From: Charina bottae
Lineage: Eukaryota > Chordata > Lepidosauria > Squamata > Charinaidae
DNA length: 64,000 bases
Reading direction: 5' to 3'
Assembly (NCBI GenBank): GCA_023362775.1
Contig: JALMGJ010000016.1
Coordinates: forward strand, 2,898,001 to 2,962,000
The notes below the pieces were generated by a model. It was not told the DNA's origin. It worked only from the letters and a program-made list of their open reading frames with translations, and did not search any database. Of the stretch, positions 6,646 to 64,000 are shown piece after piece; the stretch's first letter is position 1, and each line of letters begins with the position of its first letter. The position numbers and the translations under genes were made by a program.

Positions 6646-6840
6646 TGTCCTGACTTCAAGTGAAGGAAAACACGCTGAGACTTTAAGTTGAAGCTCTAAT
6701 GTTTATTGTCCTACTCTCCTAGACAGAATCCAGCTAAACTAAAATGAACAGGTAATGCTCAGAGAAAGGGTCCAAGAAATCAGGGCAGGGCCTTCTTTAG
6801 CCTCTTGGGAGGAAAGCAAAGCGATTCAGTACTACGCATG
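6646..6840 (-). repeat. 3' LTR of the 6.6-11.9 kb chromovirus
   Basis: The 3' limit at 6646 (element-sense end GGACA) is set by the 65-bp match to the 5' copy. The 5' limit is inferred from a purine tract (AGGGGGAGAAACACA) just before a TG at about 6839 and is uncertain, because the pol frame stays open to 6780 and would then overlap U3. The LTR contains the self-priming complement at 6727-6740 and the polyadenylation signal AATAAA near 6706. No clear TATA box was seen. Confidence 0.6.
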
Positions 6841-9800
6841 TGTTTCTCCCCCTGGAGGGAGCCCCTTCCTTCTCTGTCAGTTATCTCCCTGACACCACCT
6901 TCCCCTCCAAAAACACATTCCATCGAGTCCCCCTCCCCTCCAGTGTCCTTGTCTCCATCCACTTTCTCATGGGAGTCCATCTCCTCCTCCGAATTCTCAT
7001 GGGAACTGGGGAGTGGGGGGAGCTCTTCAATGGAAAGATCTTCAAAGGAAGAAGGGCTGCTGTCATCCAGATCTGATAACATCTCCTGTGCAGCTGGCTC
7101 TTCCTGCAAAACAGCTAGAGGGTTAGAGAAGTTCTCCCCCCTCCCTCTTGGGAAATGCATGCCAGAGGTGGAGGGCTGCGGCTCAGCCTCCTCCCTTTGC
7201 TCTGGCCCCTGGGCCTCTCGTAGGGGTGAAGGTTGCCAACTTATGAACTCCTCTGCTTGGTGGTTTTCTCCTTGTTTGGTCAAGGGATCAATTTCTGGGA
7301 GCTTGTGAGGCCTTGGCTTGTGAGGGAAAAGCTGATGGAATTTGTGCACCAGCAAAGGTGCATGTATGTCTTTGGCATTTTCCCAGGACCGTTCCGTCTG
7401 AGAATACCCCTTCCAGTGTATCAAATATTGGATGCCCCTGCCCCACCGCCTTGAATCTAAAATGTCTCCAACTTCATACTCTTCTTCCCTGTCTACAAGA
7501 ACTGGAGGTGTGTGTGTGTGTGTGGGGGGAAATCTGTGAACGCAAGGCACTTGGGGGGGATTCCTTGACCAACAATGATCTGTGGAACACTGGATGGATT
7601 TTCATTGAGTCTGGAAGCTGCAAACGATAAGCCACTGGGTTTATCTGCTGTAACACCGTGAAAGGGCCTACGAACTTAGAGTCCAATTTTTAGAAGGCCT
7701 GCTAGAGGTTAAAAACTTGGTAGAGAGCCAGACCTTGTCTCCCACAGCAATCGGTGGCCCTTCTTGTCTGTGTGTGTCTGCAGTTCTCTTATAAGCAGCT
7801 TTGGTATTGTCTAGCTGCTCCTTTAACAGCTCATGAGCAGCTTGTCGCTCTGTGACCAAGTCTGCAGCTGCCGGAACTGCCCCCTGTTGCGAGGAAGTGG
7901 GCAATACCCGCAGATTAAACCCATAGAGTGCTTGGAAAGGGGACATCTTGGTCGAGGAATGCACTGAATTGTTATAGGCAAATTCTGCCATGGGGAGCAG
8001 GTCTGGCCAATTGTCCTGGCAATAATTGATGTAACATCTGAGATATTGTTGCAATATCTGATTAATTTTCTCAGCTTCCTCATTTGTGGAAAGATGATGC
8101 TAAGAGGACAAGTGTATTTGGACCCCCAATGACTGAAAAAGTGCCCCCCAGAATCTGGAAGTAAATTGACAGCCTCTGTCGCTAATTGTGTGATTAACCA
8201 TGCCTCTATGCCTAAAGATTTGGTCCAAAAACAACTGTGCTGTTGCTTGTGCCTTTGCAGGGAATAAAATGTCCCATTTTTGTAAAACAGTCCACAACCA
8301 CCAATATGGAAGTAAAACCTCGGGCCGGTGGCAAGTCAGTGATGAAATCCATGGAGACGGTGTCCCAGGGCTGGGGGGGTGTGGGCAGGGGCTGTAAAAG
8401 TCCTGCTGGTTTTCCTGTGATGGGTTTGGCGTGTCTACAGGTATGACAAGAGGCCACGTAAGTCTTTATGTGTGCAGCCATCTTAGGCCACCAGTAGTCT
8501 CTGAGAGCTCTATGCAGGGTTTTAAAAACTCCTCCATGTCCGACCGTTTGGCTGTCATGACATAGCTTTAGCACCTCTTCCCTCAGGGGGGATGGGAACA
8601 TAAAGCCATCCGCTATGCCAAAGAATCCCCGCATCTACCGTGAATGGGGAAAGTGTTCCTTGCTGGGCCCCCTGGAGGTCATCCAGCCTAGCTCTTGCAT
8701 ACCGGTCCTGCTGCTGCTGAGCTTTGATTCTTGCAAAGAGATCCTACGCCTGCCTGCTGGCTGCTAAGATCTCTGCTTGGTTCCCCTCAGGAGGCCTCTC
8801 AAAATTGTGAGGTTGTAAAATTGTAGCATGAGCACGTTGGTGGGAGGCTGTAATGAACTGAGGCTGTCGAGATAATGCATCAGCCAGATGATTCTGATTG
8901 CCAGGTAATTAAGAGATTATGAAATTGAAACAGTAGAAAAACTGGCTCCATCTGACTTTGCATGGCATGAGTGACTTGGTGTTTTGTAAAAGTTCTAAAT
9001 TCTTATGATCTGTGCAAACTTTTACCGAAAAGGTCGCCCCCTCTAGCCAGTGTCTCCACTCTTGGAAAGCTGCTTTGCTAGCAATTCCTTGTTAAACACA
9101 TCATAGTTTCTCTCTGCCGGTGATAGCATTCAAGAGAAAAAGGCACAAGGAAGCATCCCCTCCCCTTTTGGGTTCTCAGCCTGCAGAAGTACAACTGCTA
9201 TTGCAAAATTAGATGCGTCTGTGTGGACAACGAATTGCCGCTCTGGGTCGAGGTGTCTTAGAAAAGGTTGGGATACGAAAAGTTGTTTAAACTCTTGGAA
9301 AGCAGCCTGCTACTGCTCACCCCAGAAGAACTTTGTCCCTTTCTTTAGGAGCTGAGAAAGTGGGCATGCCTTTTCTGCATATTTTAATATGAATTTGTGA
9401 TAGAAATTCGAGAACCCTAAAAAATTTTGTACCTCCTTCACATTACGGGAGTGTTCCAAGAGAGAATTGCCTGGACCTTTGAGGGATCCATGGCTATGCC
9501 TTCTGTGGAAATTCTGTAGCCCAGATAGTCCAATTGAGTTAAATCAAAGGCACACTTCTTTAGCTTGGCAAAAAGCCTGTTTTCTCTTAGTCTTTGTAAA
9601 ACATTGTGGACATGGGTTATATGAGAAGTTGGATCATCAGAAAATATGAGGATGTCATCGAGGTAAATGACTACATACTTATCTAATTAATCTGAAAAAA
9701 TGTGATTCATAAATCTGAAAATACAGCCCCACAATTACTTAGTCCGAAAGGCATGACCAAATATTCAAACTTACTATATTTGGTATCGAAGGCTGTCAGG

Positions 9801-10918
9801 TATCCGTGCCCTTCCTTCCTTCAGATCAGATTGTAGGCATTTCTGAGATCCAACTTGGTAAAAATGCATGCTTTTTGTAAGCGATTGAGCAGGTCTCTAA
9901 TGGTAACTGCATTAAGTGCACTGTAGTCATGAACTGTGCGCATGGGAGTCCCCCTTCCTTCCGTCTGCGCTGAAGGTGCGAAGGGGTCTGGCTTCTTTAG
10001 TACAAAGAAGGTAGGGGCAGATGCTGAAGATGTGGACAGTCGAATGAATCCTTTCTTGAGGTTTGTATCCAAGTATTCTTTCAGAGTAGCTAGTTCTTTG
10101 GGAGACATAGTATAATGCTTCTTTGCTGGAAACTTGGCTCCTGGTTTTAGGTCGACAGTACAGTCGTACACCCTATGGGGTGGTAATGCTGTAGCCTCCT
10201 GTTCGCTGTAAATATCTGTGAAGTCTCTGTACTTGGTCGGAAGCTGCGCCCCCCTGGTCTCCAAGACTGCTGTCATTGTTGGAGAAGGTGAGGCTGCTTG
10301 CAATTTGTGGTGCCGACAGTCTTTTGCTGGGAAGGAAATTGCTCCTATCACCCAGCGCAAACAGGGGTTGTGAAGCTTTAGCCACAGCATGCCCAGGATT
10401 ATAAAACCTTGTAATGATGCTGTGACATAAAGCTGAATCCACTCAGTGTGAGCTCCAATCATTAGCTGAAGTGGTTGTGTGCAGCATATGACTGGGCCTG
10501 CTTTGAAGGGTTGACTGACAATGGTTTCAACTTCTATGGAACGTGGTAATTCCAGTGTTGGAATATCCAACTTTTCCACTGTTTCTACATCTATAAAGTT
10601 GGTGGTGGCACCGGAGTCAATGAGAGCGTCTAGTGCAACTTGCCACTTGGAGTCTATGGTTACTGTGACTGGGATAAAGTAAAATGCTTGGTTGGAATCT
10701 CCGGAATGAGCTCTTCTTAATTGCTGGAGGGCCTCCTTGTGGAGCTCTGGTGAGGGAGGCTGCCAAAGTTTCCCTGGTTGGAAGTAGAGGCTGGGGCCAG
10801 TCTCTGCTCTGCTGCTTGGTCTAGTGGTCTTGCCGGAGCTGCTTGGCCTCTGACCGGACAAGCCATTACTATGTGATCCGGGGCCCCACAATAAAAGCAA
10901 AGGGCTCTTTCTCGCCAT
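6780..10918 (-). pseudogene. pol: Chromovirus pol with chromodomain and acidic tail, broken
   Basis: Polyprotein remains in order. Aspartic protease with ALIDSGATTNF near 10620. Reverse transcriptase starts with the FTKLDLRNAY block near 9840; the catalytic YLDD box is readable near 9650 after stops. RNase H remains (CTDHKNL near 9030; LADALSR near 8880). Integrase has zinc-binding HGG...CHTC (8550-8440), a MDFITD block (8360), SDRGCQF (8180) and YNNSVHSST (7970). A chromodomain (VGDILDSRRWGRGIQYLIHW) lies near 7475-7400. Stops and frameshifts split it at about 9820, 8635, 8100, 7680 and 7510. The last shift coincides with a TG microsatellite and a G run. The final 256-codon frame continues about 165 residues past the chromodomain as an acidic Ser/Glu/Pro-rich tail ending in a basic PPKRLKK. 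Confidence 0.87.
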
Positions 10919-20796: not shown

Positions 20797-21753
20797 TTAT
20801 ACACATATAGGTCCCTCAATTGTTACATTTACATCCCTTAACAATTGCCTATACCATATGAGTTCTGAACGTAGGTCAGATAGTGCAGCGTACTCTGCCT
20901 CTGCAGTAGATACGGCAACAGAACTCTGTTTCCGAGACCTCCACCCCACCAAGGTGTCACCAAACTTAATTATCAATCCTGACATTGATTTCCTATCATG
21001 TACATCATTAGCCCAAGCACTATCTACATAGCATTTTAATTCCAATGGTTTACAAGGTTTTATTAATAAACATTTATTAATAGTCCCTTTAAGATACCTA
21101 AATACATATTTAATACCTTTCCAATGTCTCTGGGTAGGTTGCACAACATACCTACTCAGTACATTCACCGCATTCCTGATATCGGGACACAACCATTGTG
21201 CTACGTACAATAAACTTACAATTATTGATTGATACTGTTCTTGATTACATGATGTTTGGTCATCGTCTCCAGCCTCTGTCTTAACAAAATCAGTTGTCAT
21301 TGGGGTAGGAACCTCCTTGCAATGTTCCATATCGTTATCTCTTAGCAGCTGTTCAATTTTCTTCCGCTGCTCTAGAACGTAACCCCCATCAACCTTCTGA
21401 ATACCTACGCCTAGGTAATTCCTAATCTCTCCCAGATCTTTAATATCAAATTGTTGCTTGAGTTCTTCAGTAAATTCATTTACCCTCCTTTGATCTTTAG
21501 CTATAAAACACAAATTGTCTACAAAGAACAAAAGCAATACCTGTTCATCATTACATTGCTTTATATACAGACATGGGTCACCCTTGCTACACTTAAACCC
21601 CATTCTTTGCAATGCTTCATCTAATCGCAGATTCCAGCAATGCACCGATTGCCTGAGTCCATACAATGCTTTCTGCAACTTGTATACTCTACCTGCCTTA
21701 TTAGATTCATAACCCGGAGCTTCAGCCATATAAATTTCCTCCCACATGTACAA
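20797..21753 (-). pseudogene. pol: Copia reverse transcriptase and RNase H, catalytically dead
   Basis: The frame covers only the later part of the RT. It begins at EEIYMAEAPGYE and continues through KLQKALYGLRQS. The expected YVDD box is FVDN, with the second Asp codon at 21514-21516 changed to AAT. RNase H follows with CYVDSAWAND and STAEAEYAALSDL near the C-terminus. The RT finger region (normally about 90 residues, with the KARLVA block) is missing: LPEGHRE sits directly against the EEIYM segment near 21760. The result is inactive for polymerisation. Confidence 0.88.
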
Positions 21754-22690
21754 TCTACTTCCCTATGCCCCTCAGGCAGCCTAGTAGATTTAAACACCTT
21801 ATGGGAATTAATGGCATTCATTTCCACATCCATAGCAGCTTTCCACTTTTTCTGCTCTTGTGGTGGCAACTCCTCTGAATAGCTATGAGGTTCATAATCA
21901 ACAAAACACACTTTAACATCAGCTGGTTTGTAATGCTGAGGTGGTATGCCCTTGTTAACTCTTTCAGATCTGCGCAATACAGTAGCATCCTGCTTCATTG
22001 GCACACTAGGAGTTAATTCCTCTTCATCCTTAATCACATCTCTGGACTCTCGCCGCTCTGATAGCTCGATCTGTCCCTGACTAGGAAGAAAAACCTGACT
22101 CCCTCCGTGTAACTTCTGCCAATTTCTATGCTCACTGAAACTTGCTGATTGTGAAATAACAAGTCTTCTGCCATCAGTAAGCCTATATCCCTTGGTTCCT
22201 GGCTCATACCCCACAAAAATCATTTTCTGTGCTTTAGCCTGCTCTTTCCTACGTACTTCCTTATGCACGTGAACCCAGGCTGTGCACCCAAACACTTTCA
22301 AATGAGCTAATGATGGCTTCTTGCCATACAAAATATAATATGGTGTTTGATTCACTGACACACTCCACAACCTGTTAATTAAATAATTAGCAGTCAGTAT
22401 AGCCTCTCCCCAGTATCCTCTAGATAACCCTGAGTCAGCTAACAGTGAATCCTTTACTGTTTGTAATGCTAAATATCTTTGTTCTGCCACTCCAGGCTCT
22501 GATGCACTATGTGAATTGGTTCTTCTGTATGCAATGCCCCTCCTATTGAGCCATTGCTGAAAACTGCCACTCATAAACTCAGTACCCCGGTTAGTCTGCA
22601 AACTACACACCTTTGTGTTATATCTACATTCTACAATCTGCACCCAATTCCTGAACTTATCAATTGTCTGGCTTTTAGCTTTCAACAGAT
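21754..22690 (-). pseudogene. pol: Copia integrase core, catalytic Asp replaced
   Basis: This contains the integrase catalytic core and its C-terminal extension. The second acidic position lies in LQTNRGTEF, where copia integrases normally have Asp; the codon at 22590-22592 is AAC. GVAEQRY carries the expected Glu nearby. YLINRLWS, LKVFGCTAWVHV and FVGYEPGTKGYRL follow as in the family. The frame ends by running out of phase at the RT junction (LPEGHREVDCTC), where sequence has been deleted. Confidence 0.85.
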
Positions 22691-23510
22691 AACAGAACCT
22701 GAATCTAGTGAAATCGTCAACAATTACTAAGACATATTTAGCACCGCCTAATGTGGCTGGTAATGGGCCAATTAGGTCAACGTGAACTAATTCAAAACAT
22801 TTCTATGTGACTTTCTATCACTTAATTTGCTTACAGGATACACCTTTGACTTAGACACCTTACATGCTGTGCAATCCAGATAAGCTTGGCACGGTTTCAA
22901 ATCCATTCCAGAAGTTGCTTCAGACATCTTTTCAACCACCTTGAAACTTGGATGCCCCAACCTTCTGTGCCACAAATGTTCACATGATTCATGGCATGGT
23001 TTGTTGATCATTGCTACATCATGGGTTACATAACCATCTGTCTTGGGTTTCATCTCATACAGACTGTTCTGCAATACACCCTTACCACAGACATGATTAT
23101 TTTTCATAATAATACATTCACCCTTCACAAACCTTACTTCATATCCCTGTTTATCTAACTGAGAAACACTCAGGATATTATACTCTAGGTCTGGTACACA
23201 TAGCATAGGTAATTCAATATTCAAACTAGGTACAAACACAAACCCTTTTCCAATAACAGATGCAAACGTTCCATTTGCCAGGCTAACATGATTCCGTTCA
23301 GCCTGCGTAAACCTTTTAAACATCTTCCTGTCATTGGCAACATTTTCGCTTGCTCCACTGTCCAGAAGCCACATCTCCTTTAAATTCCTTCCAGTAGAAT
23401 TTATCACCAACAGCTGGACAGCACTCCGTTGCTTGGCAATCCTCGGCTTGACTTTTGCCTTACTTTTACAGTCCCGTTGCAAATGGAATTTAGAACCACA
23501 GCGAAAACAG
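22690..23510 (-). pseudogene. pol: Copia protease and integrase N-terminal region
   Basis: The same 341-codon frame that carries the zinc knuckle continues into the aspartic protease (WLLDSGASENVAN at about 23370; the catalytic DSGA is intact). It then enters the GAG-pre-integrase zinc domain (LWHRRLGHPSF near 22970, then DCTACK). It stops at 22787 just where the integrase core should begin. The DLIGP and VDDFTRF blocks are readable in the next frame, which indicates a single frameshift. Confidence 0.85.
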
Positions 23511-24186
23511 CATTTAAGAGATAAAACCTTATTATCAGTGTTAGTACAAGAAACATATTCCCCCACAGACTTACTCTGCTGTGGCTTATCTACAGTGCTT
23601 TTGCTGTAAGCCTTTCTTCTCTGTTCTTCCTCCAGAAGCCTCCCAGTCAGATAATTTACAGTCAAATCTTTCTCAGATAATGACCCGAAACTGGTTGCTA
23701 AATTATCCCATGTTTTATTAAGTGAATTGAGAATAACATACACCTTATGCGCTTCTGTCAATTGCATCCCTCTTTGTGCCAATTCTAAGAACATCCCAGT
23801 CATGTATTGCAAATGCTCAAAGACATTCCCACTGCTACTTAACCTAGCATGTTACAATCTTCGCGTTAACATGACCTTACATAACGGTGTGCTTCTGAGA
23901 TATACATTTCTTAAAGCTTCCCAGCACTCATTAGCTAACTGTAATTCCTGTACATAACATAATGACTGTCCTCCAAACATAAAATTATGCTTGACAATGC
24001 TCTCTCATTCTGTAAAATAGCTTCCTTATCATCCAACTCGTCTGGTGGATCATGGACGGCTCCCCAAATACCTTCACGGCGAAGAAACATTTCCATCTTA
24101 TACGCCCAAGACAGATAATTGGAGTCATCCAGCCTTTCCAGAGGGAAACCACCTCCAATAGTAGACTGCATTTTCACTGTGCTCAT
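23510..24186 (-). pseudogene. gag: Copia gag, frameshifted
   Basis: Gag starts MSTVKMQS at 24186, with a UBN2-like start of gag (RLDDSNYLSWAYKMEMFL). The first frame stops at 23935. The reading continues in another frame (QLANECWEALRNVYL) and again from 23812 (GMQLTEAHKVYVILNSLN), so at least two frameshifts are present. The CCHC zinc knuckle CFRCGSKFHLQRDC lies near 23510. The protein would have coated the element RNA in virus-like particles, but no intact product can be made. Confidence 0.85.
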
Positions 24187-33649: not shown

Positions 33650-33710
33650 ATACTCAACATCATTGGCGATCACTCGTAGCCGAGTAAGATTGTCTTCCAA
33701 AGGTAAAATT

Positions 33711-36700
33711 TTAACAGTGGATCCGTAAGTGGCTATAAAGGCCAATTCTGGATCCGCACAAACTCCCACAATGAGGGCATAGGTTTCCGGGTGGGAGACG
33801 GTCATGATGAGGGTTTGCCTGACGTGCCTTCCTTTTATCTCTTTTCTCCCTTTCGCCCTGTACTCGTGCTTCTTCAAAGTCCATAGCGCCATTAATAAAG
33901 GCTGATCTCCAATTGAAACGCTCATGAGTTAGGGCTTCCCAGTTCTCAATGCTGATATTACATTTTTTTAAATTAGCTTTGAGAGTATCTTTGAATCTCT
34001 TTTGCTGTCCACCAATATTCCGTTTTCCATTCTTAAGTTGGGAGTAAAGTAGCTGCTTTGGAAGACGATGGTCAGGCAATTCGAACAACATGACCGGTCC
34101 AGCGAAGTTGATGTTGGATGATCATTGTTTCAATGCTGGTGGTTTTCGCTTCTTCTAATACACTAACATTAGTCCGCCTATCTTCCCAAGTAATTTGCAG
34201 AATTTTTCGGATGCAGCGTTGATGGAATCTTTCAAGAAGTTGGAGGTGGCGTTTGTAGAGGGTCCATGTTTCACAGGCGTACAGAAGGGTTGGTAGTACA
34301 ATGGCTTTGTAAACAAGCATTTTGGTCTCCCTGCGAATGTCCCGATCCTCAAACACTCTATGCTTCATTCGGGAGAAAGCTACACTCGCAGAGCTCAGGC
34401 GATGCTGAATTTCAGCGTCGATGTTGGCTTTTGTAGATAGATGGCTGCCGAGATAAGAAAAGTGGTCGACATTTTCTAGTGACACACCTTTAAGCTGGAT
34501 TGATGGTGCTGCGGAGGGATTGGTTCAAACTTGCTGGTAAAGCACTTTGGTTTTTTTAATGTTAATCGAGAGGCCAAACTTTTCATATGCTTCTGCAAAG
34601 ATGTTTAGGATAGTTTGAAGATCTTCTTCGGAGTGTGCACAGACTACGTTATCATCAGCATATTGAAGTTCTATAACAGAAGTTGTAGTTACCTTATTTT
34701 TTGCTTTCAGCCTACTAAGATTAAAAAGCTTTCCATCTGTTCGATATATAATTTCTACACCAGTAGGAAGTTTCTCTTCAACAAGGTGTATAATCATAGC
34801 GATGAAGATAGCAAATAAGGTTGGAGCAATAACACATCCCTGTTTAATGCCGGATTCCACTTTAAATGGATCGCTTTGAGAGCCATTGTTATTCAGGATT
34901 GTTGCCATCATGTCGTCATGGAGTAGCCGCAAGGTGTTCACAAATTTATCAGGGCACCCGATTTTCAGAAGGAAGGTCCAGAGAGCAGTACGATTTACAG
35001 TATCAAAAGCTTTAGTCAGATCAATAAACGCCATGTACAGAGGGCGGTTTTGCTCCTTGCATTTTTCTTGAACCTGTCGTGCAGTGAAGATCATATCCAC
35101 TGTTCCCCTGGAAGGGCGGAAGCCATTTTGCGTTTCAGGGAGGATGTCTTCTGATACAGATAGGAGACGGTTTGCGATGATCTTTGCCAGGATTTTGCCT
35201 GCTGTGGCTAGAAGGGAGATGCCTCGATAGTTTCCACAGTCTGTTCTATCACCCTTTCTAAAGAGAGTGATAATTATGGCATCCCTAAAGTCTTCTGGAA
35301 TCTCCTCCCTCATCCAGATTTTTTCGATGAGCTTATGAAGTTGTTGTGTAAGTTCAGGCCCGCCTTCTTTAAAGACTCCAGCAGGAATCCCATCAGGTCC
35401 ACTAGCTTTGTTATTTTTCATTTGTTTAGTGGCTTTACTAACTTCCTCCAAACTAGGGGGTACTGCAAGCTCATCTCTTATTTGTTTTTGCGGGATTTGC
35501 AAGAAGACTTCATCAGCCACAGTAGAGTGATGATTAAGGAGATTGTAGTAATGCTCTTTCCAGCGCAGTGCAATAGACTCTTTGTCCTTTAGAAGTTTAG
35601 CACCATCTACTGAGCGTAAGGGATTTGTACCATGGTTTGTTGGTCCATAGATGGCCTTTATGGCATTAAAAAAGCCCCGTGCATCATGAGCATCTGCAAA
35701 ATGTTGGGTTTCTTGGGCTTTTTTTATCCACCATATGTTCTTAAGTTCTCTAGTTCTTCTTTGGACTTCTGCCTTTGCACTGGCGTAGATTTTTTTCTTA
35801 ACGGCACAGTTAATATCTTTTTGCCATATCCGGAAGGCTTTCCTTTTCTTGTCAATAATATGTTCAATCTCACTATCGTTCTCATCAAACCAGTCCTGAT
35901 GTCTCTTAGTTTGGTATCCGATAGTTTGTTCACAGGCTGAAATAATAGAAGTCTTCAATTTAACCCAGTGTTCCTCAACATTTTCAGGAAGTTCCATAGG
36001 CAGATGTTTCTTGAGAGTTGATTGAAAGCAAGCTCGTTTAATAGAAACTTGAAGGGCCAGTGTATTCATTTTACGCCTTGGTTTTCTTCCTTGGAGCCTA
36101 CGATGAGGGACAATCTTTATGGCCATTGTGGATCGAATTAATTGATGGTCTGTCCAGCAGTCATCGGCGCTCGTCATGGCTCTGGTGAGAAGTACATCAC
36201 GGTGATCTCTTGCACGGACAATTGCATAATCTAAAAGATGCCAGTTCTTCGACCGTGGGTGCTTCCAAGATGTTTTTAAAAAATTTTCTGGCGAAAGAGT
36301 GTGTTAGTAATGACAAGGTTATGCTCTGCACATTTAGTCAGAAGTAAGATTCCATTCATGTTGCTCTTGTCAACTCCTTCTTTCCCAATGTTCCCTGGCC
36401 ACAAATCAAAGTCACGCCCAACTCTTGCATTGAAATCGCCGAGGAGGATAATTTTATCCTCCTTTGGTATCTCTGATAAGATGGTGTCCAGCTGGGTATA
36501 AAATTTTTCCTTGATATCCTCATCTGCATCTAGTGTTGGTGCGTAAGCACTTAGGATAGTTGCCTGTTGGTTTTTGGCGAGTTTTATTCAGAGAGTTGAG
36601 AGTCGTTCGTTAATCCCAGTGGGAACTTCTGACAAGAGCTTCACAAGGTCGTTTTTGATAGCAAAGCCTACCCCATGTATTTGTCGTTCTTGTTCAGGCA

Positions 36701-36896
36701 GTCCTTTCCAAAAGAAGGTATAACCTCCTTTTTCTTCCTTCAACTGTCCTCCTCCTGCTCTTTGAGTTTCTTGGAGTGCTGCTATATCAATATTAAAACG
36801 TCTCAGCTCACTTGCAATAATGGCAGTCCTACGTTCAGGTCATTCACTATCCATATTGTCTTGCAGTGTCCGTATATTCCATGTTCCAAAATTCAT
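33711..36896 (-). pseudogene. LINE endonuclease-reverse transcriptase, nearly intact
   Basis: The protein nicks target DNA and copies the element RNA onto the cut. Coding starts MNFGTWNIRTLQD at 36896. The APE endonuclease has LQETQRAGGG and the catalytic-type block LLGDFNARVG near 36440. The RT has a GPDGIPAGVFKEGG block (35400), NGFRPSRGTVDMIF (35120), AFIDLTKAFDTV, GIKQGCVIAPTLF and the catalytic YADD near 34650. A thumb and YLGSHLSTKA region follows, then LLYACETWTLY (34270). The last part ends with a C2H2 finger, CPHCGSLCGSRIGLYSHLRIH. Damage: TGA at 36840-36842, TGA at 36588-36590, a frameshift near 36290, a stop at 34522-34524 and a frameshift near 34090. Confidence 0.88.
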
Positions 36897-37460
36897 GTGT
36901 TTTTTACGACCGCTAGATGGTGACCCCACTGGTCGCGGTAATCCAGTCAGGGAGAAATATGAGGCAGACTATGTTTAGGGCACCTTTTCTAGCCCCCTCC
37001 CCATATGGGGTGAGCAGAGTGGATCCTAAATAGGGCTGCTCAGTCGTGGATACAGCTGCCGAACTACTCAACTGCCTCGATCCTTGAGTCAGGGCGACTG
37101 AATCCGTATCCACCACCCATGTGCTGATCCATGACTAGGAGCTTCCGGATTTCACAGTCCTGCCCCCGTTGCCATTCGTCAGTCGCCATGGGACTTTTGG
37201 TTGTTTTGGGTTTGGTGTGGTTGGAAGACGCCTGTGCGTGAATTTGTTTTATGTGTGGAGATCGGTGCACAACGATCAGCACACAACCTTCACAGAAAAA
37301 GGGTCTAATCCAATGGCATGGATACCATGACGATTGGTGACCTTTTGTCTGCTGCAGCCTTCATCTGCCTTCGCAGCCGTTGTAACAATACACCTTGTTA
37401 TCTTCCGCCTGTTCTGCCGTTGAGGACTTTCTTGGATCGTTCTTTGTCTGGTTCCTCCCC
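36897..37460 (-). other. LINE 5' UTR downstream of the ribozyme
   Basis: About 560 bases between the ribozyme candidate and the presumed start codon at 36896. Short overlapping frames (67-77 codons) show no motif. The last 100 bases before the start are GC-richer and contain a run of CCCCTCC-type sequence. This region may hold the internal promoter. Confidence 0.5.
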
Positions 37461-37583
37461 CTGGACCTTACCGCCATGGGTGACCCTACCAGGAGTACAT
37501 GACTCCCGACGGCTTCGCTCACAGGGTTCATTGAGAACACACAAGCCCACTCACCACAACAAGGTGACGATCCAGCGAGTGAG
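37461..37583 (-). ncRNA. HDV-like self-cleaving ribozyme candidate at the LINE 5' end
   Basis: Minus-strand pairings found by hand follow. P1 is CTCACTC (37583-37577) with GAGTGGG (37552-37546), 7 bp with one G-U. P2 is CTGGATC (37575-37569) with GGTCCAG (37467-37461), 7 bp with one G-U. P3 is ACC/GGT (37565-37563, 37555-37553) around a 7-base loop. A P4-like stem is ACCCT/AGGGT (37527-37523, 37487-37483) holding an inner GGAGT/ACTCC hairpin. The P4-P2 joiner ATGGCGGTAA (37477-37468) has a C in a GGCG context, like catalytic C75 of the HDV ribozyme. P1 begins at the exact element start set by the target duplication, where such ribozymes cut. P1.1 was not resolved. HDV-like ribozymes are known at the 5' ends of R2, RTE and L1Tc/ingi elements. 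Confidence 0.68.
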
Positions 37584-37594
37584 ATACTCAACAT

Positions 37595-38099: not shown

Positions 38100-38590
38100 A
38101 AACCCTTCTCTGGGCCTTTCAGTAAGCATCTATACAGGAGGTTGTCAGTTCTTCTCCATGCTAGTGATAAAATCAAAAACTGTCTTTAAATTGATAAAGG
38201 TATCATAAAGGTATCATGAGAGCAGCATGAATATTTTTTTTCTACCAAATATCTCAGTATGGTGCATTGATCAAATGTTGACCATCCAGCCCTGAAGCCA
38301 GCTTGTTCTGTCTCTAAAAATTCAGATGTGCTGGAAATAATACAATCAACAGCTTTAAGAATCATGTGGTTTGTTGCATCCTTAATGTATTTCTTCACCT
38401 GGAGCTTGGCTTCACCTGCTGAGGCTTGTATGAATTCTGCCATTTTAAATACTGGGTAAAACTGGTCTTGTGGAGTGCTTCTCTGGTTTGGTCAATCCAT
38501 GTCAATGGGTTTGCCTCTTTGTGGAAAAGAGGTCTTTCAGTTTAATCCTTGATCATGCTTGGCCTCTCAAAAAGTCCTTAGAGAGGCCAA
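38100..38590 (-). mobile_element. Old LINE reverse-transcriptase fragment
   Basis: A minus-strand frame (38443-38186) contains EQAGFRAGWSTFDQCTILRY, the RT block around the QAGFRxGRST motif of CR1, L2 and Jockey-like LINEs. Just downstream, in a shifted frame, IDFKTVFDFIT corresponds to the following AFDLKAAFD-type block. Stops and frameshifts are frequent. It is a different and older LINE than the one at 33.7-37.6 kb. Confidence 0.6.
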
Positions 38591-54545: not shown

Positions 54546-55239
54546 GTTACTGGAGGTTGCTTACAATAACGCGGTACACCAAAGCACGGGGTTTTCGCCA
54601 TTCAAAGTCGCTACAGGGCAGGACTTTATAACTATCCCCGAATTGGCCATGTCACACAACACAGAACTGCCACAACCTCTAAAAGCGGACGAATGGATAG
54701 GAAAACTAAGCAGCAATTGGCCAGTCATGGTGCAAACATTGCAGGAAGCCAAAGCTAGTTACAAAAAATATGCTGATCGCAAGAGGGGGGAAGAATGGGA
54801 ATTAAGAGTAGGAGACAAGGTGTACTTGTCAATGAAGAATCTGCGGGCAACACAACCATCACGGAAATTGGCACCAAAATTCATAGGTCCATTCCCAATC
54901 ATTGAGGTCATCAATCCAGTAGCGGCAAAATTACAATTGCCAAAAGCGCTAAGAAAGGTGCATCCTGTGTTCCACATCAGTTTGTTGAAACAATACCACA
55001 GCTCACAACACTGGCACCCTGAACCAGTGGAAACCCCCCCCCCCTTGTTGGTGGAGGGCGAACCACATTTCGAGATTGATAGAATTCTGGATTCCAGAAG
55101 ATATAAGGGGCAGTTACAGTACCTAGTGAAGTGGCAACACCTACCAATTGGAGACAAGGAATGGGTCAGTGCAAAACACACACGCGCTCCCAAACTCGTG
55201 AAAGCTTTTCACAGGGAATTCCCGGACAAACCGCATTGA
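54546..55239 (+). pseudogene. pol: Chromovirus integrase C-terminus and chromodomain
   Basis: Open for about 230 codons from the truncation, without a stop. It starts in the end of the integrase core (LEVAYNNAVHQSTGFSPF). A linker and the GPF/GPY module follow (KFIGPFPIIEVINPVAAKLQ), then HPVFHISLLK, then a chromodomain (HFEIDRILDSRRYKGQLQYL, VKWQHLPIGDKEW). It ends FPDKPH. In intact elements the chromodomain helps steer integration to marked chromatin. The missing N-terminal part makes this a fragment even though the surviving frame is intact. Confidence 0.85.
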
Positions 55240-60827: not shown

Positions 60828-63800
60828 TTAACCAGGTTTAGAAGGGAATTGATCATGGAATTTCTTCAATAACCTTGGCGCTGAAACATGAATCTTATCA
60901 ACCCACTCCTCAAATCCCACAGGCAAATGTTTCCATTGCACCAAGTACTGTAATTTTCCTCGGTGCAATCTAGAGTCCAAAATGTTCACAATTTCAAAAT
61001 GTTCGTTATCTCCCACCATGATAGGTGGAGGCGCTACTGGATCTGGATGCCATTGATCAGCTGGTTTAACTGGTTTCAATAAGCTGATGTGGAAAACAGG
61101 ATGTACTCTACGAAGGTTCTTTGGCAAGTCCAATTGAGCGGCTACTGGGTTGATCACTTTCACAATGGGAAATGGCCCAATAAATTTAGGCCCCAGTTTC
61201 TTGCATGGCTGAGTTGATTTCAAATGTTTTGTGGACAGGTAGACCTTTTCTCCCACCACTAAAGGCCACTCTGGAGCCCGTTTACGATCAGCAAAATTTT
61301 TGTATGAATTTTTTGCTTCTTGTAATATATTCAACATTACCGGCCAATTTGATCGTATTTTTGTAATCCATTCATCTGCTAGTACAGGATCAGTTTGTTG
61401 AAGCATGGCAGGGTCAGGTAGTTCAGGAATAGGTACAAAATCCTGGCCAGTAGCCACTTTAAATGGTGAAAATCCAGTGCTCTGATGAACAGCATTATTA
61501 TAGGCTACCTCAGCAAAGGGTAACAACTCCACCCAATTATCTTGCTGATGACTAATGTAACACCGTAAATACTGTTCCAACACGGAGTTAAGCCGTTCAC
61601 AAGCTCCGTTACCCTCCGGATGATGCCCAGAGGTAAGACCCTGTTCAGTTCCAATCAATTTTAGAAATGATTTCCAAAATTTGGCGGTAAACTGACTTCC
61701 GCGATCGCTGATAATCCGCAAGGGGGCGCCGTGCGCTCGGTAAATGTGCAAGATGAATAACTTTGCCAGTTGACCAGCAGATGGCAGTCCTTTACAAGGG
61801 ATGAAATGAGCTTGTTTAGAAAATAAGTCAGTTACTACCCATATGACGGTCTTGCCTTTACTCTCTGGTATGTCTACAATGAAATCCATTGAAATTTGTT
61901 TCCATGGGCTTGTTGGCTCAGCCACTGTTTGCAATAGTCCCACCGGTTTCCCGGGTGCTTTTTTCATGGATACACACACATGACATGACAAAACATATTG
62001 TTTAACATCTTTCCTCAAAGTTGGCCACCAAAATTGCCTTCTGACCAAATGTAAAGTTTTTACAAATCCGAAATGTCCGGCAATTTTGCTATCATGACAA
62101 CGTTGTAAAATAGCCTTTCTCACAGCCTCTGGAACATATAATCTGTCTCCATTCCACCACACCCCATTCGCCTCAGTTAATGTTTGCTTGTGCTCTTTCC
62201 ACCAATCATCATCCTCTATAGCGGTTTTAAGTTCTTTCTCTAGAGAGGGTTCACATAGAGGTTTCGGTGGTTTGGCCTTGCTTCTAGTGATAGCCACCTT
62301 CCCTTGCAATTGTACAGGTATGGGTGCTGCATCATTGTCAGAACCAGGTTCCTCCTGGTTGGATAAGCCCAATTGTTGGGGAGACATTACTGTGGATACC
62401 ATCAGTTCTGGTTGAGTGTCATGCTGTGGCAGCCTAGATAAAGCATCTGCTAAAAAGTTTTTTCCAGCTGGCAAATACTTTAATGTGAAATTAAACCTAC
62501 TGAAAAATTCAGCCCAACGGATTTGTTTAGGATTTAATTTCTGAGGCGTTTTAAGTGCTTCCAAGTTCTTATGGTCAGTGAAGACTTCAAAGGGATGAGG
62601 CGAACCCTCCAGCAGGTGTCGCCATGTAGCTAGAGCATGTCGCACTGCAAAAGCTTCTTTTTCCCAAACCAACCAACGTTGTTCAGCCTCAGTAAATTTA
62701 CGAGAAATATATGCACAAGGTCTTAACTGATCATTATTGTCTCTTTGCAATAATACGCATCCAACCGCAGAATTGGACGCGTCTGTCTGGATCAAAAAGG
62801 GACGTTCTGGATCAGGATGTTTTAAAACGGGTTCTGCAGTGAACAACTGCTTCAGTTGTTCAAAAGCCGTTTGGCACGCCGGCGTCCATTTTAATTTCGG
62901 TTGAGGTTTATTTGCTAATACGCCATCAGCCGATTTCTTGGTTTTTAACATATCGGTTAATGGTAACGCAATCTTGGCGAACCCGGGAATGAACTGGCGA
63001 TAGAAATTTGCGAACCCGAGAAAAGATTGTAATTGCTTTTTTGTTCTGGGGGTTTCCCACGCCAATACATCTTTAACTTTGGCGGGATCCATTTCAATGC
63101 CCTGATGGGATATTCTGTAGCCTAGAAAATCCAATTTTTCTTTGTGAAATTCACATTTAGACAACTTAACATACAGTTTGTTTTCTAAAAGCTTTCTGAG
63201 CACTGCTTTTACTAGTTTTACATGTTGTTCCATGGTCTCTGTGTATATTAAGATGTCATCCAGATATACCAATACCCCCTGGTACAGAAATTCATGTAGA
63301 ACCTCATTAATTAAGCTCATGAAGACTCCAGGCCCGCCCCTTAATCCGAACGGCATGACTTTATATTGAAAACAACCTAATTGGCAATTAAAAGCGGTCT
63401 TCCACTCATCCCCTTCTTTTATGCGTACTCTAAAATACGCTTCTCTCAAATCCAGCTTAGTGAATATTTTCCCTTTGGTCAGTTGAGCCAGCATATCTTT
63501 CATCAACGGGAGCGGATATTGGTTAGAAATACAAACAGCATTCAACCCCCTGTAGTCCGTACAAAGCCGTAATGAGCCATCTTTCTTTTTCCGGAATAAA
63601 ACCGGAGCAGCCGTGGGTGAGGTGGATGGCTCAATAAACCCCCACTTGAGGTTCTTATCTATAAAATTCCTCAGCTCTTGTAGTTCCTTATGAGTCATTG
63701 AATACAACTTGGGTTTAGGTAACACTGCCCCAGGCTCCAATTGTAAAGAACAGTCTGTTTTCCGATGAGGGGGCATCTGGTCTGATTCCGTCTCTAAAAA

Positions 63801-64000
63801 AATCTCCCCCTCCTCCTCATATAGTGACGGTGCCACCGCTGCTTGAGCTAGCTCCCGCACCACACCGAGTCCTGCAGTTTCCCGCTCAACTCCCAAATAT
63901 GAGCCATCTGCAAATTCCATTTCTCCAGAAACCCAGTCAATCTGAGGGTTACGCTCCCTCAACCATTTGAGCCCCAATACTATGGGCTGATTGGAAATGG
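60828..64000 (-). CDS. pol: Chromovirus Pol polyprotein, partial at N-terminus
   Basis: The reading frame is open from the right edge to a stop at about 60828. Positions below count from the Leu-Gly at 63977. The end of the aspartic protease (VLGLKWLR then NPQIDW) comes first. RT spans about 75-260, with FTKLDLREAY and the catalytic YLDD at 238-241. RNase H spans about 390-515 (QTDAS, D399; E441; D468; LADALS, D511). The integrase zinc region is H635/C665/C668, and the core is MDFIVD (D698), SDRGSQF (D758) and ACERLN (E794). Then come a GPF module (KFIGPFPIVKV, 931-941) and a chromodomain (HFEIVNILDS to EEW, 993-1025). The RT block usually reading GLxNAPA is GLRGGPGVF. All catalytic residues are present, so activity is possible if the unseen gag and 5' LTR are intact. 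Confidence 0.92.
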   Translation of the reverse strand, partial: ISNQPIVLGLKWLRERNPQIDWVSGEMEFADGSYLGVERETAGLGVVRELAQAAVAPSLYEEEGEIFLETESDQMPPHRKTDCSLQLEPGAVLPKPKLYSMTHKELQELRNFIDKNLKWGFIEPSTSPTAAPVLFRKKKDGSLRLCTDYRGLNAVCISNQYPLPLMKDMLAQLTKGKIFTKLDLREAYFRVRIKEGDEWKTAFNCQLGCFQYKVMPFGLRGGPGVFMSLINEVLHEFLYQGVLVYLDDILIYTETMEQHVKLVKAVLRKLLENKLYVKLSKCEFHKEKLDFLGYRISHQGIEMDPAKVKDVLAWETPRTKKQLQSFLGFANFYRQFIPGFAKIALPLTDMLKTKKSADGVLANKPQPKLKWTPACQTAFEQLKQLFTAEPVLKHPDPERPFLIQTDASNSAVGCVLLQRDNNDQLRPCAYISRKFTEAEQRWLVWEKEAFAVRHALATWRHLLEGSPHPFEVFTDHKNLEALKTPQKLNPKQIRWAEFFSRFNFTLKYLPAGKNFLADALSRLPQHDTQPELMVSTVMSPQQLGLSNQEEPGSDNDAAPIPVQLQGKVAITRSKAKPPKPLCEPSLEKELKTAIEDDDWWKEHKQTLTEANGVWWNGDRLYVPEAVRKAILQRCHDSKIAGHFGFVKTLHLVRRQFWWPTLRKDVKQYVLSCHVCVSMKKAPGKPVGLLQTVAEPTSPWKQISMDFIVDIPESKGKTVIWVVTDLFSKQAHFIPCKGLPSAGQLAKLFILHIYRAHGAPLRIISDRGSQFTAKFWKSFLKLIGTEQGLTSGHHPEGNGACERLNSVLEQYLRCYISHQQDNWVELLPFAEVAYNNAVHQSTGFSPFKVATGQDFVPIPELPDPAMLQQTDPVLADEWITKIRSNWPVMLNILQEAKNSYKNFADRKRAPEWPLVVGEKVYLSTKHLKSTQPCKKLGPKFIGPFPIVKVINPVAAQLDLPKNLRRVHPVFHISLLKPVKPADQWHPDPVAPPPIMVGDNEHFEIVNILDSRLHRGKLQYLVQWKHLPVGFEEWVDKIHVSAPRLLKKFHDQFPSKPG

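Follow-up and report, generated by a model that had tools for sequence, protein, structure and literature searches.

A predicted HDV-like self-cleaving ribozyme at the exact 5' terminus of a LINE family in Charina bottae

The first 151 nucleotides of a LINE family in Charina bottae, here called family A, very probably code for a self-cleaving ribozyme of the HDV-like type, placed precisely at the 5' terminus of the element. The copy analyzed lies on the minus strand of a 64,000-nt stretch of the genome assembly (the window), and nucleotides (nt) of the LINE are numbered from its first base. An HDV-like ribozyme at this terminus had been proposed in the initial annotation, and it is still the best reading of the region, but the 3' strand of P2, the joiner J4/2, and the catalytic C had been misassigned. 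The features of the revised model are listed below by window position; family B is a second LINE family, described further on.

33661..37583, minus strand: LINE (family A), with a broken endonuclease/RT frame and a C-terminal CCHH finger, assigned by RVT_1 and homology
33650..33660, no strand: target-site duplication on the 3' side of the LINE, 11 nt, ATACTCAACAT
37584..37594, no strand: target-site duplication on the 5' side of the LINE, 11 nt, ATACTCAACAT
37433..37583, minus strand: predicted HDV-like ribozyme, nt 1-151, with the expected cleavage site immediately 5' of nt 1 (37583)
37577..37583, minus strand: P1 5' strand, nt 1-7, CUCACUC
37566..37574, minus strand: P2 5' strand, nt 10-18, UGGAUCGU plus C18
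37563..37565, minus strand: P3 5' strand, nt 19-21, ACC
37556..37562, minus strand: L3, nt 22-28, UUGUUGU, with U22 and G27 where L3 has its conserved U and G
37553..37555, minus strand: P3 3' strand, nt 29-31, GGU
37546..37552, minus strand: P1 3' strand, nt 32-38, GAGUGGG
37534..37538, minus strand: P4 5' strand, nt 46-50, from the unconstrained fold
37519..37526, minus strand: P4b 5' strand, nt 58-65, CCCUG-U-GA, from the unconstrained fold
37513..37520, minus strand: motif common to family B, part 1, nt 64-71, GAGCGAAG
37491..37507, minus strand: hairpin inside the P4 domain, nt 77-93, from the unconstrained fold
37464..37487, minus strand: motif common to family B, part 2, nt 97-120, AGGGUCACCCAUGGCGGUAAGGUC
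37459..37465, minus strand: P4b 3' strand, nt 119-125, UCCAGGG, from the unconstrained fold, overlapping the P2 3' strand as first drawn
37451..37455, minus strand: P4 3' strand, nt 129-133, GGAAC, from the unconstrained fold
37441..37446, minus strand: J4/2, nt 138-143, CAAAGA, with C138 at 37446 as the candidate catalytic base
37433..37442, minus strand: P2 3' strand, nt 142-151, composed of G142, bulged A143, and ACGAUCCA

The 11-nt duplication ATACTCAACAT is present at both 33650-33660 and 37584-37594, and it sets the 5' boundary of the LINE, its first base, at 37583, as the initial annotation had stated. The reading frame of this copy is disrupted. A 550-amino-acid RT piece matched the RVT_1 domain in Pfam (5e-37), endonuclease homology upstream of the RT was seen in protein comparison, and a C-terminal CCHH finger was read from the reading frames. 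A protein search returned 1731 relatives at E ≤1e-20 among 7985 scored candidates, and the named organisms among the matches listed (120 of the 1731) are animals. No further significant copies of the LINE were found within the window, no relatives were found in viral contigs by exact pattern, protein, or alignment, and the antisense ORF over the ribozyme had no protein match at E up to 1. A looser ribozyme pattern gave at least 151 matches in viral and prokaryote contigs that were ascribed to chance; a loose upstream filter retained one of them, in which no ribozyme context was seen by eye. The window holds other retroelement sequences, all recognized by eye. A fragment resembling the RT of a different LINE adjoins the element at 38186-38443 (minus strand). 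Gypsy-type pol ORFs, some with a chromodomain-like end, lie at 60828-63977 (minus strand, open for 1049 codons), 6780-10918 (minus strand), and 54643-55239 (plus strand), and Copia-type pol and gag-like ORFs lie at 20797-23812 (minus strand).

Two helices of the first drawing are present in the window copy, namely, P1 (CTCACTC/GAGTGGG) and a short P3 (ACC/GGT), which closes a loop of 7 nt. The start of P1 falls on the boundary that the duplication defines, a coincidence that had been put forward for this copy and that recurs in other copies of family A; it shows the position of a cleavage site rather than cleavage. The L3 U and G, which form a reverse wobble pair in HDV-like ribozymes according to the consulted part of PMC3774820, correspond to U22 and G27 in family A and occur with equal spacing in family B. 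P1.1, the pairing of L3 with J1/4, was assessed by eye: one pair is available in family A (G24-C39) and two are possible in family B, where the length of the G run varies among copies. Overall, P1, P2, P3, and P4 follow HDV order in a nested double pseudoknot, and all 31 modelled pairs are standard in the window copy.

P2 had originally been drawn as CTGGATC/GGTCCAG. It is replaced here by TGGATCGT (37567-37574) with ACGATCCA (37433-37440), which form eight Watson-Crick pairs, so that the ribozyme ends at 37433, 28 nt beyond the earlier drawing. In the RNA, the helix joins UGGAUCGU (nt 10-17) to ACGAUCCA (nt 144-151) at -10.8 kcal/mol, versus -8.7 kcal/mol for the helix that it replaces, and C18-G142 can lengthen it beyond bulged A143. 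The joiner had been placed at ATGGCGGTAA, with the catalytic C at 37473. Because the P2 3' strand comes after the C-N-A-A joiner CAAAGA, a better layout takes C138 (37446) as the candidate catalytic base. The C-N-A-A sequence precedes the P2 3' strand in both families (C138-AAAGA in A and CUAAA in B), and its C is the presumptive catalytic residue. Among dinucleotide shuffles, the corrected descriptor anchored at base 1 was matched by 0 of 20,000 with the L3 U/G rule and 2 of 20,000 without it, compared with 2 and 20 of 20,000 for the fold as first drawn, counts that flatter the models because all descriptors were written after the sequence had been seen. When the descriptor also admitted one bulge in P2, none of 20,000 shuffles satisfied it for family A, and none of 20,000 for family B. 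Shuffling just the 3' part left a P2 and joiner in 374 of 20,000 cases for A and 806 of 20,000 for B, and taken alone these two features are therefore modest evidence for either family. A scan of the two window strands with the corrected descriptor found 36 start positions; only at 37583 and its neighbor 37582 is the P2 8 bp long and the U/G rule obeyed.

Family A is abundant, and its copies share the 5' end. The sequence of nt 1-30 had 1341 exact matches in the 1.80-Gb assembly and none in a reversed control. A search with nt 1-150 gave 123 candidates, of which 40 were scored (18 at 100% and 22 at 99% identity). All 30 family A loci that were cut out begin with CTCACTC, and their upstream flanks are unrelated save for one weak BLAST pair. 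These 30 loci are a selected sample because the query began at nt 1, and a second sample was therefore taken through nt 300-329, using the first 41 listed places of 1841 exact matches. Nt 1 is present in 26 of these 41 unselected copies, and the start falls within nt 1-5 in 34. The exact 5' 30-mer occurs in 20 copies and is absent from 21 (20 fetched copies plus L241), whose first base is nt 1 (6 copies), nt 2 (3), nt 3 (3), nt 5 (2), nt 14-16 (3), nt 32-33 (2), nt 107 (1), or nt 150 (1). Upstream flanks were inspected for the 30 selected loci and 20 more, a set that excludes the 20 unselected copies with the exact 30-mer. Copies extending upstream of nt 1 had been named in advance as evidence against a ribozyme here, and none with shared upstream sequence was found among these 30 plus 20 loci. 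Two 5' junctions have unusual structures. In L250 (356 nt), the first ~13 nt of the element (nt 1-13) are tandemly repeated, and L242 (256 nt) has a 5' foldback, where nt ~113-170 recur in inverted orientation, attached at about nt 2, as might result from a cDNA end priming synthesis on the template it was copied from.

Over nt 155-1600, family A loci diverge by 1.03% from their majority sequence (23 of 30 loci; L001, L009, L010, L020, L023, L024, and L025, which are interrupted or deleted, were left out), and an ORF of ≥900 amino acids is found in 4 of 20 fetched family A stretches. Judged by its copies, family A is young and has moved recently.

Target-site duplications were examined in 20 fetched copies, 17 of which reach the 3' end. 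In 9 of the 17, a duplication of 9-12 nt is flush with nt 1; in one of these, L212, the 3'-side duplication comes after a simple repeat. Another copy has one extra base between the duplication and nt 1. The script found a 6-nt match in 1 of the 17 and none in 6; by eye, six of these seven have a duplication of 7-11 nt separated from nt 1 by 2-9 extra bases, and the seventh sits in a simple repeat. R2 elements whose transcript is cleaved at the element's own 5' terminus likewise have variable 5' junctions, scattered around a fixed RNA end (PMC3774820), such an end being predicted for family A. Two copies, L226 (1048 nt) and L227 (1302 nt), are internally deleted, retain both ends, and are flanked by duplications of 12 and 11 nt, respectively. 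They are probably non-autonomous partners of the LINE, and their structure suggests that the element ends are enough for movement in trans.

The proposed helices were compared with those of a second family. The pattern GGGTCNCCCAWGGCGNVAAGGNC had 53 matches and none in a reversed control; the 30 loci cut out comprised 4 variants of family A and 26 members of family B. As judged from its sequences, family B is a second LINE family in the same genome, older than A and with a distant protein. The distance between the two proteins was judged via common relatives: the family B endonuclease/RT is about 20-45% identical, in fragments, to relatives of the family A protein, versus 50-68% for the family A protein itself. 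Eight of the 26 loci, whose 5' end looked truncated or rearranged (L037, L039, L040, L046, L047, L049, L051, and L056), were left out of the family B majority. Its 5' end reads CCCCCC-AAGUCCUGCUGUGCU-GCC-UCAUCGU-GGU-GGGGGG, followed by the P4 domain and then by CUAAA-GCAAGCAGG. P1 is C6/G6, P2 is CCUGCU(G)UGC/GCAAGCAGG, P3 is GCC/GGU, L3 is UCAUCGU, and J4/2 is CUAAA. P4 (CUGGG/CCCAG) and P4b (GGGAUGA/UCAUCCC) both appear in the unconstrained fold.

MAFFT misplaced helices when aligning A with B, and pairs were therefore counted on a hand-made structural alignment. All 30 compared pairs are standard in both families; between A and B, 19 are changed on both sides, 2 on one side, and 9 are identical. 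The 19 double changes fall in P1 (2), P2 (8), P4 (4), and P4b (5). In a control in which the partners were slid by 1-3 bases, 9-17 of the 30 still pair. The check for compensatory changes that had been called for thus supports the helices, within a comparison of two families in which, for family B, P2 was picked by its complementarity and P1 is a homopolymer whose length is uncertain. P4 and P4b were found by folding and for that reason are the cleaner paired-change evidence. A translated 5' region of a relative, GGKVKGEVPDKERPKEVL, was recognized at residues 433-488 of a Coilia grayii gene model (P0008), and the 5' sequence therefore reaches into fish; protein letters cannot test pairs.

The P4 domain combines replaced helices with a conserved motif. 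Unconstrained folds recovered P4 and P4b in both families, and when nt 39-137 of the window copy are folded to minimum energy, GGUCCAG lies mostly inside P4b, CCCUG(U)GA/UCCAGGG. GAGYGAAG, followed by AGGGUCACCCAWGGCG..AAGGUC, is near-identical in A and B, families in which P2, P4, and P4b have been replaced and the proteins are distant. The core pattern of the motif, AGGGTCNCCCAWGGCH, had 311 genome matches and 1 in a reversed control. Inspection of 20 of these 311 places assigned 4 to family A and 13 to family B, left 3 unrelated (L239, L248, and L249), and brought up no third family. A hairpin pattern likewise yielded no third family, its 11 matches being 10 that their sequence assigns to family A and 1 due to chance, with 3 in a reversed control. 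The motif is placed away from the core and so is not explained by cleavage alone. We would guess at a promoter or protein-binding role.

Three other accounts of this 5' end were weighed against the corrected ribozyme. The fold as first drawn, with P2 as CTGGATC/GGTCCAG and the catalytic C at 37473, has a helix of seven pairs, including one G-U, at -8.7 kcal/mol, a descriptor matched by only 2 of 20,000 shuffles under the L3 rule, and a J4/2 whose beginning resembles the AUGGCG of HDV. However, it requires 3 nt between P2 and P3, its register allows at most 3 bp in family B, and its P2 3' strand pairs within P4b in unconstrained folds, while the corrected P2 is the stronger at -10.8 kcal/mol; we give it scarcely any credence. 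That the structure exists only on paper, as a chance fold or dead remnant that does not cleave, would fit the absence of an Rfam match, the weak P1.1 of family A, and an ordinary folding energy. Covariance models of Rfam (release 15), which the initial annotation had proposed as a check, gave no match at gathering scores nor at E up to 10; folding energies were ordinary relative to shuffles (z of -0.51 for nt 1-104 and -0.44 for nt 39-137), and nt 1-104 folded alone preferred a long hairpin over P1-P3. Against this stand the shuffle controls, the paired changes, and recent movement (1.03% divergence in 23 of 30 loci), and we regard a chance or remnant structure as very improbable.

Alternatively, an internal promoter might start transcription exactly at nt 1, with a structured 5' UTR serving translation or binding of the LINE protein. 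Promoters that start the RNA at the exact 5' end are described for some non-LTR elements (PMC3774820, in part), trypanosomatid Pr77 is presented as promoter and ribozyme at once in the portion of PMC8256844 consulted, and the P4-domain motif is strongly conserved at the sequence level. The promoter account leaves unexplained an HDV-type double pseudoknot at that very spot and the paired changes in P2 and P4. An RNA polymerase II start at C would also be unusual. Such a promoter is compatible with the ribozyme, and both could hold; as an explanation of its own we consider it improbable. The ribozyme as corrected here is the reading that we retain.

By comparison with R2 and L1Tc, the LINE RNA would be transcribed inside a longer RNA, and the ribozyme would fold while its strands emerge. 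With the help of C138, the RNA would be cut directly upstream of nt 1, and its shortened form would serve as the template for target-primed reverse transcription, so that new copies would have an exact 5' end and carry the ribozyme again.

The nested double pseudoknot is shared by HDV ribozymes and both families, and the family B L3 (UCAUCGU) and joiner (CUAAA) are close to those of HDV. Unlike HDV, family A has a much larger P4 domain, a P1 that begins with C, and no match to an Rfam family. HDV-like ribozymes are listed in PMC11620745 for R2, R4, R6, RTE, SART, Baggins, and L1Tc. Those of the L1Tc/ingi type start at C1, and the trypanosomatid ribozyme L1TcRz/Pr77 resembles family A in lying at the 5' end of an APE-type LINE, in having its cleavage site before a C at +1 (predicted for A), and in the existence of internally deleted partners with a common 5' end (PMC4035085, partial text). 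Compared by layout, Pr77 is 77 nt long, whereas the family A ribozyme is about 151 nt with a P4 domain of ~100 nt and a conserved motif. R2 ribozymes, as described in the part of PMC3774820 consulted, are similar to family A in a P1 of 6-7 bp, a P2 of ≥5 bp, the L3 U and G, a catalytic C before the P2 3' strand (a candidate in A), and a variable P4. R2 targets 28S genes, and its cleavage site often lies upstream, in rRNA, whereas family A occupies differing sites and its P1 lies wholly inside the element.

Vingi elements, which are related to Ingi, have one ORF with an APE endonuclease, an RT, and a C-terminal finger; the Vingi/Ingi clade is marked by the APE endonuclease, the RT, a C-terminal CCHH finger, and the lack of RNase H. 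By this domain layout (endonuclease, RT, and C-terminal CCHH finger), the family A LINE may resemble Vingi. The clade has been reported in hedgehogs and reptiles, according to the part of PMC5753468 seen. A literature search whose reach excluded most subscription work, including the paper that defined Vingi, found no description of family A, and titles and abstract openings retrieved for Vingi and ribozyme held nothing related. The family A ribozyme looks like a new addition to the known HDV-like ribozymes of LINE 5' ends, as a predicted member.

The motif of the P4 domain, kept where helices changed, raises a separate question of its own. It is conceivable, although we hold the idea only tentatively and think it rather unlikely, that these distant LINE families share a 5' end of two modules, a freely drifting HDV-like core and a P4-domain motif that has another function, for example acting as an internal promoter, the way Pr77 does, or being bound by a host factor or the LINE's own protein. 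Should the LINE be related to Ingi, the ribozyme, and perhaps the motif as well, may have been inherited in common with trypanosomatid L1Tc. The comparison of the two families gives a model that is missing from Rfam release 15 and could be used to search animal relatives of the LINE, and family A, young and with 1341 exact copies of its 5' 30-mer in a single genome, makes a good study system. The predicted ribozyme would provide a testable answer to how an animal LINE with many insertion sites makes exact 5' ends, namely, by co-transcription and self-cleavage, as in R2.
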